Assembly (NCBI RefSeq): GCF_005047635.1 | Contig: NZ_SUKC01000007.1 | Span: 38,856-102,855, forward strand | Source: Arthrobacter sp. CAU 1506 | GTDB lineage: Bacteria > Actinomycetota > Actinomycetes > Actinomycetales > Micrococcaceae | Reading direction: 5' to 3' | DNA length: 64,000 bases | Part shown: positions 1,680 to 7,541 of the stretch, one piece after another | Layout of the letters: each line of letters begins with the position of its first letter | How positions within the stretch are numbered: position 1 is the stretch's first letter | Notes under the pieces: generated by a model | Seen by the model: only the letters and a program-made list of their open reading frames with translations | Database searches by the model: none | Told to the model about the DNA's origin: nothing | Made by a program: the position numbers and the translations under genes

Positions 1680-3086
1680 TTAGACGGTCTGAGCCGTCCG
1701 CCAGCCACCGCGGTATTCGTTGCGGGCGGTAACCGAATAGGGCGCCGGGCTGACCACGGCGCGGACCTCCAGCTGTTGGTGCGGCTCAACCGTGGTCTTG
1801 CGCGTGCCGCCGTCGGGCTCGCCCCACACCACCTTCACCTCGGTGCCGATTTCCACGTCCGGGTTGACGGTGGCCAAGGACAGCGCCCGCTTCTCGTTGG
1901 CGCTGTAGCCGGTGAACAGGGACAGTCCCACATTCGTGCCGCCGGCGTCGACGATCGCGTCGTAGTTCGAGGACCCGTAGTTGGCGTTGGGCAGGTCGAA
2001 GTACTTGTAGGGCGTGCCGTCGGTGTCGAACAGCGAGGCGAAGATCTTGGTCATGTCCTCGGCGTTCCAGGCCAGCGTGACTTTCTTCCGCTGCACAGCC
2101 GGGTCGATTTTCTCCAGCGCCTCGCGGCCGATGAAGTCATGGTCGAACTTGACGAAGGAGCCATAGCCGAGCTCCCAGGGGTTCAGGTAGTAGTCCTCGA
2201 TCTTGTCGGAAAAGAAGCTCCCGGCCACCGCATTCACGGCCTCATAGCTGTCCACACCGAGCCATTCGCGGTACGGCCGTAACTCCTCACCGGAGTAGAT
2301 GGCCGGCAGCGGAGACGGGATCCAGCCGGATTCCAGCGTGTTGGACGAATACGCCCGGGCGCCGACGGCCAGCATGCCGAACTCCTCGCCCGCCGCCAAA
2401 ATGGCCTCCCGGATCCGGTCGTACGATTCATACGGCCCCCACAGCTCCAGTCCCGGCGCCCCCGCCATGCCGTGCCGCAGCGTGCGTACTTGCGCCCCGG
2501 CCACCTGCATATGGTCCATGCTGAAGAATTTCAACTGCTCCACGGTGCCGCCATTGATCTTTTCGATGATCTGCCAGGCGTTCGGACCCTGGATCTGGAA
2601 GCGCCAGTACTTGCGCTGCACCGGCTTGCCCATCGGCCGCGACGGGGACCGGCGGTCCACCTCCAACTCCACGTCGTACCCGCGGGTCTGCCCGTGGAAG
2701 AGCAGCCAGTTGGCAGCCGGGGAACGTCCCACGTAGACAAACTGGTCCTCGGCTTCGTGGAACATGATGCCGTCGCCGATCACGTGCCCGGACGGCGTCG
2801 TCGGCACATATTGCTTGGCCTTGTTCACCGGGAAGCTGACCACCGAGTTGATCGCGGTGTCGGAGATCAGTCTCAGCGCGTCCGGGCCTTTGATGAACAA
2901 GTTGTCCATGTGGTGCGTCTGGTCGTAGAGCACGGCGGCATCCCGCCAGGCGCGGACCTCGCTGCGCCAGTTGGTGAATTCGGGCGCGACCACCGGGTAG
3001 ATATAGGCGCCGATCTGCGAATTGCGCAGCATGTCAACGGTATTGCCGGCCTGGTCCAGGACCTGCTGCAGGTTCTGTGCACTCAT
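1680..3086 (-). CDS. Folate-dependent aromatic O-demethylase (LigM/DesA-like, GcvT fold)
   Basis: The 468-residue protein resembles the tetrahydrofolate-dependent vanillate/3-O-methylgallate/syringate O-demethylases LigM and DesA, members of the aminomethyltransferase (GcvT) fold. These move a methyl group from an aromatic methoxyl to tetrahydrofolate and leave a phenol. Length matches LigM (about 470). The start at 3086 (MSAQNLQQ) follows the Shine-Dalgarno-like AGGGGAATC; a longer frame upstream is not needed. It is the last gene of the galB-galC-galD-dioxygenase-GntR operon, 106 bases after the regulator. In that context 3-O-methylgallate or syringate is a better guess than vanillate, because the downstream enzymes handle oxalomesaconate. 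Substrate is inferred; the family assignment is firm. Confidence 0.85.
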
Positions 3087-3192
3087 GATTCCCCTATCCC
3101 CGCCGGCCGGGGCGGCCGGCGTATCTTGTCCCATGCTCCGGGTGGCCGGGGGCATGCTGATCGATAGCGAGTGGCTGGGGAACCGGCGTGCG

Positions 3193-3879
3193 TCAGCCGC
3201 CGGGCTCCTCGGCTGCCCGCATGATGGCAGTGGCAACGCTCTTCAGGTGCTTCTCCATGGCAGCCGCGGCCCGTTCCGGGTCCTTGGCGCAGACGGCGTC
3301 CACGATCTCCAAGTGCTCGGGCAGCGAGACGGACGGCCGCCCCGGCTGCATGGCCAGCCGGAACTGGAACCGGACGCTCTGGCCGCGCAGCCGCGCGATC
3401 AGGGCCGCCGCCGTGTTGTGCCCGCCCAGCTCGATGACCCGGCGGTGCAGCGTCTTGTTGCAGTCCGAGTACTTCAGCAGGTCACCGGTTTCCACGGCCT
3501 GGCTCATGGTCCGGCCGAGGGCCTGCAGTTCCTGCACATCCTCGTCGGTGACGTGCTCCGCTGCCTTCGCGGCGCAGATGGCCTCCAGCGCGGCGCGGAC
3601 TTCGGTGATCTCCACGGCTTCCTCCACCGAGACAGCCCGCACCCGGGCTCCCCGGTTCTGGATCCGCTCCACCAGCCCCTCCAGTGTCAGTTCCGCCAGC
3701 GCGGCCCGGACCGTGGCCCGACTGGCGTTGAATTCGGCGCAGATGTCCGCCTCCACCAGCCGCTGGTTGGGGACCAGTTCGCCCCGGTCGATCGCCTTCT
3801 TGAGTCCGGCGACGACGGCGGCCGAGTCGGTGGACTTCGGGACGGCGGTGGGGGTGGTGCTCACGGGAGGCTGCTCCAT
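3193..3879 (-). CDS. GntR family regulator, FCD (FadR) subfamily
   Basis: A 228-residue regulator with an N-terminal winged helix (residues about 25-85, including the recognition region [21 protein letters not shown]) and an all-helical FCD ligand-binding domain in the C-terminal two thirds. Such proteins usually sense an organic acid and repress their own catabolic operon. It sits inside the operon, 51 bases after the extradiol dioxygenase and before the O-demethylase. Its likely target is the palindrome at 7522-7541 in front of the first gene, which carries a TTGT-CA-ACAA core of the kind GntR proteins bind. The ligand is unknown; an intermediate of the pathway is likely. Confidence 0.9.
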
Positions 3880-3930
3880 GCTGGTTTGTGTGCTGACAAA
3901 GTTGTTGGCAATAACCTAGCCCACCCGGTC

Positions 3931-6054: not shown

Positions 6055-6739
6055 AGTCCTCAGCCGCCACATACTGCACGCCGAGCTTCTCCAGCAGCGG
6101 CCGCAGTCCGTAGTAGTCCAGGCCCAGCGTGCCCTCCTGGAACACCGAGCGGGTCTTGGCTTCCTTGGCTTCGCGCGCCTTCGACGCCTCGATCGCGGCC
6201 GGGACGTCCAGCCGCGGCACACAGACCACGCCGTCGTCGTCGGCCAGCACCACGTCGCCGGGGCGCACCGTGATCCGGCCCAGCGTGATGGGCACGTTGA
6301 CCGCGCCGGCGGTGGCCTTCACCGTGCCCTGCGCGTGCACGGCCGCGGACCAGGCCGGGAATCCCATCGCCTGCAGTTCGGCGACGTCGCGGATGCCGGT
6401 GCTGGTGACCACGCCGCGTACGCCGCGGTACTGCAGCGCGGTGGCGAACAGTTCGCCGAACAGCCCGTCGGTGCACTCGGAGGTGGTGGTGACCACCAGG
6501 ATGTCGCCGGGCCGGCACTGTTCGATGGCCGCGTGGATCATCAGGTTGTCGCCCGGCCAGCACAGCACGGTGACGGCGGTGCCGGCCACGCGGGCGCCGG
6601 ACTGGATCGGCCGGAACTGCGGGCCGGCCAGGCCGGTGCGGCCCATTGCCTCGTGCACCGTGGCCACGCCGAAGCCGGCGAGCGCGTCGGCGTCGGCCAG
6701 CTCGGCCCGCGGCGGGTTGGTGACGATGACGTTTTTCAT
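6044..6739 (-). CDS. galC: 4-carboxy-4-hydroxy-2-oxoadipate aldolase (RraA-like)
   Basis: This 231-residue protein belongs to the RraA/HMG-CHA aldolase family: it has TSTGIRDVAEL and the metal-site signature RPGDVVLADDDGVVCVP. The family cleaves 4-carboxy-4-hydroxy-2-oxoadipate to pyruvate and oxaloacetate with a divalent metal, the last step of gallate and protocatechuate 4,5-cleavage. The same fold includes RNase E inhibitor RraA, but gene context makes the aldolase role clear. Its ATG at 6739 overlaps the stop of galB in ATGA. Confidence 0.85.
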   Translation of the reverse strand: MKNVIVTNPPRAELADADALAGFGVATVHEAMGRTGLAGPQFRPIQSGARVAGTAVTVLCWPGDNLMIHAAIEQCRPGDILVVTTTSECTDGLFGELFATALQYRGVRGVVTSTGIRDVAELQAMGFPAWSAAVHAQGTVKATAGAVNVPITLGRITVRPGDVVLADDDGVVCVPRLDVPAAIEASKAREAKEAKTRSVFQEGTLGLDYYGLRPLLEKLGVQYVAAEDYDG

Positions 6740-7470
6740 GCCAGCGTGTCGGTCACTTGCGGGTAGTAGCGCATGTAGGCCTCGCCCTTGGTGTCCGTGG
6801 TGAAGCCCAGGTTGGGGCCGGCGTTGCGCTTGACCTGCACGCCGCGGCGGACGGCCAGGTCCGTGTAGTAGTCCCACATGTGCTGCTGCGCTCCCAGGCA
6901 CTCCATCGCCTTGCGTTTGGCGGCGAAGGCCTCGGTGATGTCCAGCAGCACGTTCGGCTTGAAGTCGCACTGTTCGGGCTGGTGCGGTTCGAAGAAGAAC
7001 ACCGGCGGCGCGCCCAGCGGATCGCCCGGCGCGTCGTAGCCGATGGCCTGTGCCAGCACGCGCGCGTCCAACGCCATCCGCGCCGCGGCCGGGTGGTCGC
7101 CGTTGTAGGGGTCCACCAGCGGATGGGTCAGCACCACGGTGGGCTTGACCTCGCGGTAGATCTGGACCAGCTGGTCCACCAGTTCGCGGGTGGGCACCAG
7201 CGGGTAGTCGCCGGCGTCCAGGAACCGGACCTCCGCGCCCAGCGCCGCGGCGGCGTTCTCCGCCTCCTCTCGGCGGATCGCCTTGATCTCCTCCAGCCCC
7301 TTGCCTTCGCGCCAGGCCTTGGCGGACTCGCCGCGTTCCCCATAGGACAGGCACACGACGACGGCGCGCTCGCCCCGCTGCGCCGCGGCGGCGATCGCTC
7401 CGCCCGCCCGCCAGACGAAGTCGCCGGCATGGGCGCTGACCACCAGCAGGGCCGGTTCGGTGTTGTTCAC
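6736..7470 (-). CDS. galB: 4-oxalomesaconate hydratase (GalB-like, PIG-L/LmbE fold)
   Basis: A 244-residue protein with the LmbE/PIG-L fold. The usual AHPDD zinc motif is changed to SAHAGDFVWRAGG, as in GalB-type hydratases, and a second metal region reads HPLVDPYNGDHPAA. GalB hydrates 4-oxalomesaconate to 4-carboxy-4-hydroxy-2-oxoadipate. The GTG at 7470 is preferred because AAGGAG lies 6 bases upstream; an alternative start at 7509 has no such support. It is the first gene of the operon and lies 50 bases downstream of the palindromic operator. Confidence 0.82.
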   Translation of the reverse strand: MNNTEPALLVVSAHAGDFVWRAGGAIAAAAQRGERAVVVCLSYGERGESAKAWREGKGLEEIKAIRREEAENAAAALGAEVRFLDAGDYPLVPTRELVDQLVQIYREVKPTVVLTHPLVDPYNGDHPAAARMALDARVLAQAIGYDAPGDPLGAPPVFFFEPHQPEQCDFKPNVLLDITEAFAAKRKAMECLGAQQHMWDYYTDLAVRRGVQVKRNAGPNLGFTTDTKGEAYMRYYPQVTDTLA

Positions 7471-7521
7471 GGATTCTCCTTGCACTCGGTCTGTTCTGTG
7501 TGAAGTCAATCACCGGACGCT

Positions 7522-7541
7522 CAAGATTGTCAACAATCTTG
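7522..7541 (-). promoter_or_regulatory. Palindromic operator, probable GntR site, overlapping a -35 box
   Basis: Perfect 9-base arms CAAGATTGT and ACAATCTTG are separated by CA. The core TTGT-CA-ACAA fits the GntR-family pattern. Read on the minus strand the centre contains TTGACA, an exact -35 box, so a bound repressor would block the promoter of galB. No convincing -10 box was seen. Confidence 0.65.

Follow-up and report, generated by a model that had tools for sequence, protein, structure and literature searches.

Known Gallate Pathways and the Operon under Study

Two described systems lie closest to the locus reported here, namely the gal cluster of Pseudomonas putida KT2440 and the DesA, LigM, DesB, LigJ, LigK and LigU set of Sphingobium SYK-6. 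Their gallate ring-cleavage enzymes, GalA and DesB, respectively, are type II (LigB-family) proteins, and three papers place gallate dioxygenases in this family (PMC4250580, PMC12314914, PMC3962378). The ring-cleavage enzymes given in the legend of Figure 9 of PMC12314914 are ligAB, desZ, mgaAB, desB and galA, and an enzyme of the VOC family is not among these. Here, we describe an operon of six tightly packed genes at positions 1680–7541, minus strand, of a 64-kb stretch of DNA (the window; C42:38856–102855) from the 4.24-Mb genome of Arthrobacter sp. CAU 1506, assembled in 44 contigs. With the KT2440 cluster it shares a GalB-type hydratase, a tautomerase, an aldolase and the apparent logic of proceeding from gallate to oxalomesaconate, and with the SYK-6 system a folate-dependent LigM and the 4-oxalomesaconate (OMA) lower pathway, LigJ being present in some relatives of the locus. 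It differs from the former in that a VOC-family enzyme rather than GalA would cleave the ring, the regulator is of the GntR/FCD family rather than GalR, and LigM is encoded inside the operon, and from the latter in that the ring-cleavage enzyme is of type I.

Judged by its gene content and relatives, the operon very likely specifies a pathway from gallate to central metabolism in which an extradiol gallate dioxygenase of type I, non-homologous to GalA, DesB and LigAB, opens the ring. The replacement at the ring-cleavage step and the direct formation of OMA, both proposed in an earlier sequence-only reading of the window, are strongly supported by comparative genomics, with gallate as the presumed substrate. 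A search of titles and the opening parts of abstracts, mostly in open-access rather than subscription journals, revealed no description of a VOC-type gallate dioxygenase. A syringate-consuming Actinobacterium was reportedly described by Ravi et al. in 2019 (Bioresour Technol 285:121327), and that work may overlap with the present proposal.

Composition of the Operon

The genes follow the order galB, galC, galD, VOC dioxygenase, GntR/FCD regulator and ligM, exactly as the sequence-only reading had it. The first gene, galB (6736–7509, with an uncertain start codon, TTG at 7509 or GTG at 7485), encodes a PIG-L family protein (PF02585) of the oxalomesaconate (2-keto-4-carboxy-3-hexenedioate, KCH) hydratase type; its nearest solved chain is the 4-oxalomesaconate hydratase 5cgz (E = 5e-77), and no NCBIfam cut-off was reached in the profile search of the window protein. 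The product of galC (6044–6739) is a GalC/LigK-type 4-carboxy-4-hydroxy-2-oxoadipate (CHA) aldolase, scoring 318 bits with NF006731 (cut-off 179) and narrowly under the cut-off of the LigK/PcmE model TIGR02798 (296 versus 304.5), with the CHA aldolase 3noj as the closest structure (E = 9e-71). The GalD/LigU-type OMA tautomerase (4903–6054) reaches 515 bits with NF033377 (cut-off 440), is related to the oxalomesaconate isomerase 6p3j (E = 2e-124) and is the sole OMA tautomerase match in the genome. The OMA lower pathway is complete, the tautomerase and the aldolase being over their cut-offs and the hydratase being assigned by similarity to 5cgz only. galB and galC overlap by 4 bp (ATGA), galC and galD by 11 bp, and 3 bp separate galD from the gene of the VOC dioxygenase (3931–4899).

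The regulator gene (3193–3879; PF00392 and PF07729) and ligM (1680–3086) follow. The LigM-type protein, a tetrahydrofolate-dependent vanillate/3-O-methylgallate O-demethylase, scores 922 bits with NF047885 (cut-off 580) and is close to the solved LigM 5x1i (E = 3e-230), while it stays under the cut-off of the model for the syringate O-demethylase DesA, NF047633 (629 versus 800 bits). Therefore, of the two entry substrates suggested earlier, 3-O-methylgallate is retained as the point of entry into the operon, whereas the syringate step was not identified here. Two additional LigM-type genes were noticed in this genome: one accompanied by PurU- and MTHFR-like genes (L180:13527–16710), on the same contig between the window and the LigAB locus described below, and another (82%) on contig C2.

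The VOC Dioxygenase

The predicted ring-cleavage enzyme matches PF00903 in one stretch (residues 153–271) and has no match to PF02900 (LigB) in the Pfam search, which places it outside the LigB superfamily of GalA, DesB and LigAB and bears out the earlier assignment to type I. It scores below the catechol 2,3-dioxygenase cut-off of TIGR03211 (297.9 versus 320.2 bits). An AlphaFold2 model was built from 44 sequences (mean predicted local distance difference test score 84.5, below 50 for residues 134–141, 301–310 and 319–322), and its top Foldseek matches were 3lm4 and 7q2a, at 35% identity and a query-normalised template modelling score of 0.84–0.89. The VOC fold and the 2-His-1-Glu site are common to the window enzyme and to the type I enzymes RHA1 dioxygenase 3lm4, AphC 7q2a, LapB 3hpv and the homoprotocatechuate 2,3-dioxygenases 1f1r and 4ghg, from which it differs in identity (23–35%), in having Tyr202 in place of their His and in its link to the OMA pathway. 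The predicted metal ligands, assigned through alignment with homoprotocatechuate 2,3-dioxygenase, are conserved in the clade (H156 in 81 of 81 rows, H219 in 80 and E270 in all 81).

Position 202 is occupied by Tyr in all 81 clade rows, a count which is partly selected, since the 80 named loci were picked with two conserved peptide patterns, of which one includes KSYD; the same Tyr is also found in copies picked without KSYD, namely 13 aligned family relatives and the plasmid copies from Roseomonas, Methylobacterium, Rhizobium etli and Pantoea. His stands at this position in a relative with 42% identity (L063) and in all five outgroup VOC rows. Tyr202 aligns with His200 of 1f1r, which we take to be the second-sphere acid–base residue of homoprotocatechuate dioxygenase, and the second-sphere His of type I enzymes is thus replaced by Tyr throughout the VOC clade. 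In the same alignment Arg243 of 1f1r corresponds to Ser246, and the Arg-Arg pair preceding the WWG tail to Lys296-Gly297; these arginines presumably serve in carboxylate binding in 1f1r.

On the tree, the closest relative of the window enzyme comes from Pseudolysinimonas (Microbacteriaceae), with 79–81% identity, while copies from the same family as the host are only 61–69% identical, which hints at horizontal transfer.

Gene Neighbourhoods in Other Genomes

The arrangement is not confined to this genome: it was found again in further Actinobacteria and in Hyphomicrobiales, a question that the sequence-only reading had left to a database search. Scanning of named genomes yielded at least 80 loci; in the 80 that are listed, neighbouring genes were called at E ≤ 1e-12 and 40% query coverage. 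GalD, GalC, GalB or LigJ is encoded near the VOC gene in 62 of them, and the individual counts are 58 for the GalC-type aldolase, 58 for GalD, 42 for LigM, 40 for GalB, 25 for DesA-type proteins and 16 for LigJ, while LigA, LigB and LigC were matched in none of the 80. Among the 60 listed loci with near-full flanks (at least 19 kb), 44 carry at least one OMA-pathway gene and 41 a hydratase; GalB and LigJ, two unrelated hydratases, are mutually exclusive there, alternating and never occurring together (as a check of identity, the LigJ of one member, L040, was compared with 2gwg and 6dxq). Around control VOC relatives, OMA-pathway neighbours were found in none of five loci at 33–36% identity and not in the single locus at 42%, so the association in the clade is above chance. 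The gal-linked loci are scattered through the clade on the tree and include copies from Rhodococcus, Nonomuraea, Actinoplanes, Amycolatopsis, an Acidobacteriota bin and Alphaproteobacteria. Within the family of the host, 22 of 24 relatives have GalD, GalC or GalB beside the VOC gene in the fetched flanks, the exceptions without gal neighbours being L045, with three O-demethylase genes, and L051.

Eight Pseudomonadota plasmid loci were inspected, a set separate from the rhizobial rows H30 and H32. GalB, VOC, GalC and GalD are encoded side by side in all four inspected Hyphomicrobiales plasmid loci (L086, L188, L189 and L190; 55–56% identity), L083 has LigJ-like and LigK-like genes, two Roseomonas plasmids (L082 and L191) have LigK-like and LigI-like (45%) genes, and the Pantoea plasmid locus (L085) contains no OMA-pathway genes in the fetched DNA. 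One actinobacterial plasmid record, from Nonomuraea (L084), has GalB, GalC and GalD. A lead prompted by the Leucaena host of one Rhizobium hit, that the VOC enzyme is a mimosine/hydroxypyridone dioxygenase, was ruled out by the GalB, GalC and GalD genes beside all four inspected Hyphomicrobiales copies. One of these, the VOC gene of Rhizobium etli bv. mimosae (L086:9001–9930), is possibly a pseudogene: a stop codon interrupts the frame used, and no gene is annotated there. In both Roseomonas plasmids a LigA/LigB-like pair and an alpha/beta hydrolase gene immediately precede the VOC gene, with a VanA/VanB-like pair in the same cluster; the adjoining pair suggests two ring-opening enzymes with different substrates.

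A gene for a DUF1932/NAD-binding dehydrogenase (L039:7771–8628) also recurs near VOC–gal clusters of Actinobacteria and, with 28–32% identity, near those on alphaproteobacterial plasmids, and it is present in 32 of the 80 listed loci; this dehydrogenase is not required by any known step of the pathway.

Co-Occurrence across the Family

Among 149 genomes of the same family, 25 contain a member of the VOC clade (at least 61% identity). The thresholds were the NF033377 cut-off of 440 for GalD, E ≤ 0.001 for LigA and E ≤ 1e-20 for LigI, LigC and the MgaC-like hydrolase. GalD exceeds its cut-off in 22 of the 149 genomes, all of them within the 25, and stays below it in all 124 genomes that lack the VOC clade (Fisher p = 2e-23, which overstates independence, since the genomes share kinship). 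In the remaining three VOC genomes the GalD scores are 438, 370 (broken up) and 231 bits. Matches of any strength to the tautomerase model occur in 57 of the 149 genomes, the weaker ones being PrpF-like. GalD lies within 10 kb of the VOC gene in 16 of the 22 genomes.

The enzymes of other ring-opening routes are distributed differently. Of the 25 VOC genomes, PF02900 was matched in 11 and in none of the other 14, LigA in four and the MgaC-like hydrolase in the same four, the pyrone hydrolase LigI, acting on 2-pyrone-4,6-dicarboxylate (PDC), in 10, and LigC in three (two at 31% and one, in G037, at 55%). The claim that the VOC enzyme stands in place of LigAB therefore fits the 21 genomes without a LigA match, although the genome under study itself has LigA and LigB. 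Eight genomes with both VOC and GalD (G004, G069, G001, G021, G140, G073, G049 and G097) have no match to PF02900, LigA, LigI, LigC or the MgaC-like hydrolase, so direct cleavage of gallate to OMA is the sole route that can be constructed in them.

Counter-Evidence and Alternative Explanations

Several observations weigh against a gallate dioxygenase of this kind, besides the partial selection for Tyr202 and the points taken up with the alternatives below. The nearest solved chain to the VOC protein, 9wgj (365 bits), is labelled catechol 1,2-dioxygenase; it has KSYD and an RGQAWG-type tail in common with the window enzyme, and it is not among the best 50 Foldseek rows for the model. GalD is apart from the VOC gene in six of the 22 genomes (G060, G119, G102, G034, G133 and G045), at 23–82 kb or on another contig, and identity is just 34–46% for the GalB and aldolase-like neighbours in the family loci L047–L050, L052 and L054. 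In 18 of the 80 listed loci the fetched DNA is devoid of OMA-pathway genes. Two of these loci come from contigs shorter than 10 kb; a LigM- or DesA-type gene is nonetheless present in five of the near-full loci and one short one. Eight of the 18 are from Bradyrhizobium (L156, L159, L161, L163 and L165–L168), with 59–60% identity and different neighbours, molybdenum-hydroxylase and other unrelated genes according to the open reading frame (ORF) lists of L156, L161 and L168, the last with AA_synth (Pfam). Assignment of function by identity alone was ruled out by these Bradyrhizobium loci.

According to one alternative, the VOC enzyme mainly opens 3-O-methylgallate to 4-carboxy-2-hydroxy-6-methoxy-6-oxohexa-2,4-dienoate (CHMOD) or PDC, from which a hydrolase or the PDC hydrolase would form oxalomesaconate. 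Such a substrate is suggested by the O-demethylase neighbours, and LigI is encoded near the VOC gene in six of the 80 listed loci, in addition to the 10 VOC genomes noted above; in these relatives 3-O-methylgallate may be a further substrate of the enzyme. The reported lack of PDC hydrolase and of 4-carboxy-2-hydroxymuconate-6-semialdehyde (CHMS) dehydrogenase thus does not extend to every relative, but it stands for the genome under study, where LigI and LigC were matched neither in the window (E ≤ 1e-8) nor elsewhere (E ≤ 1e-20) and the sole MgaC-like hydrolase sits with LigAB. Moreover, LigM of the same operon would consume 3-O-methylgallate, and the eight genomes named above keep VOC and GalD with no match to LigI, the MgaC-like hydrolase or the LigB family. 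We regard this alternative as unlikely.

Another possibility is that gallate is in truth opened by LigAB here, the VOC enzyme acting on some unrelated catechol. The absence of LigAB from the genome was ruled out, since LigA and LigB were found at C42:149.7–150.8 kb, about 107 kb from the operon, and the gallate dioxygenases named in the literature examined belong to the LigB family. According to PMC8431788, gallate is cleaved by a single-subunit LigB-type enzyme of Pseudarthrobacter with 44% of the activity that it shows on protocatechuate, and the LigAB found here could open gallate too. LigB exceeds the cut-off of the generic class III beta-subunit model (393 versus 317) and stays below that of the gallate dioxygenase model NF009904 (318 versus 412), though any beta subunit alone would be expected to; LigA reached no curated cut-off, its best score being 108.5 versus 161. 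However, the fetched DNA around LigAB encodes no GalB, GalC or GalD in this genome, in G125 or in G027, whereas the VOC gene has gal genes as neighbours in both Actinobacteria and Alphaproteobacteria, and 14 of the 25 VOC genomes have no PF02900 match at all. Genes of an MFS transporter and an alpha/beta hydrolase, the latter being the MgaC-like match, are located alongside LigAB, and the LigAB and hydrolase set recurs with a LigM-type gene in G125 and G027. The nearest plasmid LigB, from Rhodococcus opacus (73%), also has an alpha/beta hydrolase gene and folate-cycle genes as neighbours. By description, the LigAB locus resembles MgaAB–MgaC of Pseudomonas sp. NGC7, which handle 3-O-methylgallate there and whose MgaAB–MgaC–MgaD syringate route has no VOC dioxygenase among its genes (PMC12314914). 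It is therefore probably a 3-O-methylgallate branch, LigAB and the VOC enzyme probably serving different substrates, and the coincidence of LigA with the MgaC-like hydrolase in the same four genomes points the same way. This alternative as a whole appears quite improbable.

Finally, a role of the VOC enzyme as protocatechuate 4,5-dioxygenase, for which the dehydrogenase and the lactonase would have to be encoded elsewhere, is hardly credible: LigM makes protocatechuate from vanillate, and GalD, GalB or LigJ, and GalC also function in the 4,5-route, but the LigC and LigI required by that pathway are both unmatched in this genome, LigC is found in only three VOC genomes and belongs, where it is most similar (G037), to a separate LigAB–LigC–LigI cluster, and a protocatechuate 3,4-dioxygenase beta subunit, over its cut-off, gives protocatechuate a separate route here. 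In G037, this cluster is on contig C23, while the VOC gene and the O-demethylase genes are on C4. A second PF02900 protein of the genome under study (contig C13) was rejected as a gallate enzyme, having neighbours of a catechol-type meta pathway according to the ORF reading and scoring 125 bits versus the cut-off of 412.

Proposed Pathway and Significance

From the computed gene identities, gene order, recurrence and co-occurrence and the unmatched alternative enzymes, we infer gallate as the substrate and OMA as the product of the type I dioxygenase. LigM would demethylate 3-O-methylgallate to gallate, demethylation of vanillate also being possible. The VOC enzyme, with a 2-His-1-Glu site holding, by analogy, Fe(II) or Mn(II), would open gallate between two adjacent hydroxylated carbons and yield 4-oxalomesaconate directly, making CHMS dehydrogenase and PDC hydrolase unnecessary. 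GalD would then tautomerise 4-oxalomesaconate, GalB hydrate the product and GalC split it into pyruvate and oxaloacetate. The LigAB and alpha/beta-hydrolase locus probably opens 3-O-methylgallate and would feed its product to the same GalD, GalB and GalC, and we propose that the two ring-opening branches of this genome converge at oxalomesaconate.

In a broader sense, we are inclined to think that the clade represents a widespread, so far overlooked second family of gallate dioxygenases, built on the VOC fold and recruited independently of GalA, DesB and LigAB, in which the replacement of His by Tyr reflects a change in oxygen activation or proton transfer that suits a trihydroxybenzoate, and which provides the main entry of gallate and syringyl lignin in many Actinobacteria and some Hyphomicrobiales. 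If true, the step that defines gallate breakdown would have been taken over by a non-homologous enzyme. A ring-cleavage enzyme would then be at hand for those Actinobacteria and Alphaproteobacteria that a count restricted to LigB-type enzymes, such as the gene survey in PMC12314914, makes look incapable of using gallate or syringyl lignin. Catechol 2,3-dioxygenase labels, for example those of the Roseomonas and Methylobacterium copies, would have to be corrected, and lignin conversion would gain an additional enzyme, one that naturally carries a His-to-Tyr exchange in a catalytic site which has been studied in depth.

Putative Operator and Neighbouring Genes

A perfect 18-bp palindrome, AAGATTGTCAACAATCTT, lies at 7523–7540 and is the putative operator of the GntR/FCD protein, which probably controls the operon through it; the end coordinate of the sequence-only reading, 7541, falls at this palindrome. 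It is the sole match in the window at up to three mismatches, 0.04 being expected. Under a stringent rule, a pattern search of the window and the 80 listed loci (1.56 Mb) revealed 20 sites, 12 of the ATTGTNNACAAT type, of which 11 are located upstream of either a pathway gene or a GntR gene; the remaining eight represent one Bradyrhizobium palindrome of different sequence, CCGTTTGTACACAAACGT, common to the Bradyrhizobium VOC loci. No ATTGT-type site was found in 69 of the 81 sequences under this rule.

An aldehyde dehydrogenase (ALDH) gene (67–1476, plus strand; PF00171) is convergent with the operon, its 5' end probably lying upstream of the window start, and may encode a vanillin or syringaldehyde dehydrogenase. 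Homologues are present in 17 of the 80 listed loci, in eight of them near the VOC gene and at 79–82% identity. This gene is almost identical to another ALDH gene at L003:10947–12353 (464 of 469 residues, 1381 of 1407 bases and all 66 bases upstream); the two are about 112 kb apart, one at each aromatic locus (the gal operon and LigAB), and their near-identity suggests a recent duplication or gene conversion.

Divergent from the operon is a gene for a TMEM175-like potassium channel (PF06736; 7500–8576). Further along the window, at 12353–13327 and 13461–15869, a sulfatase gene (PF00884) adjoins an ORF which, by its appearance, we take to encode a formylglycine-generating enzyme.

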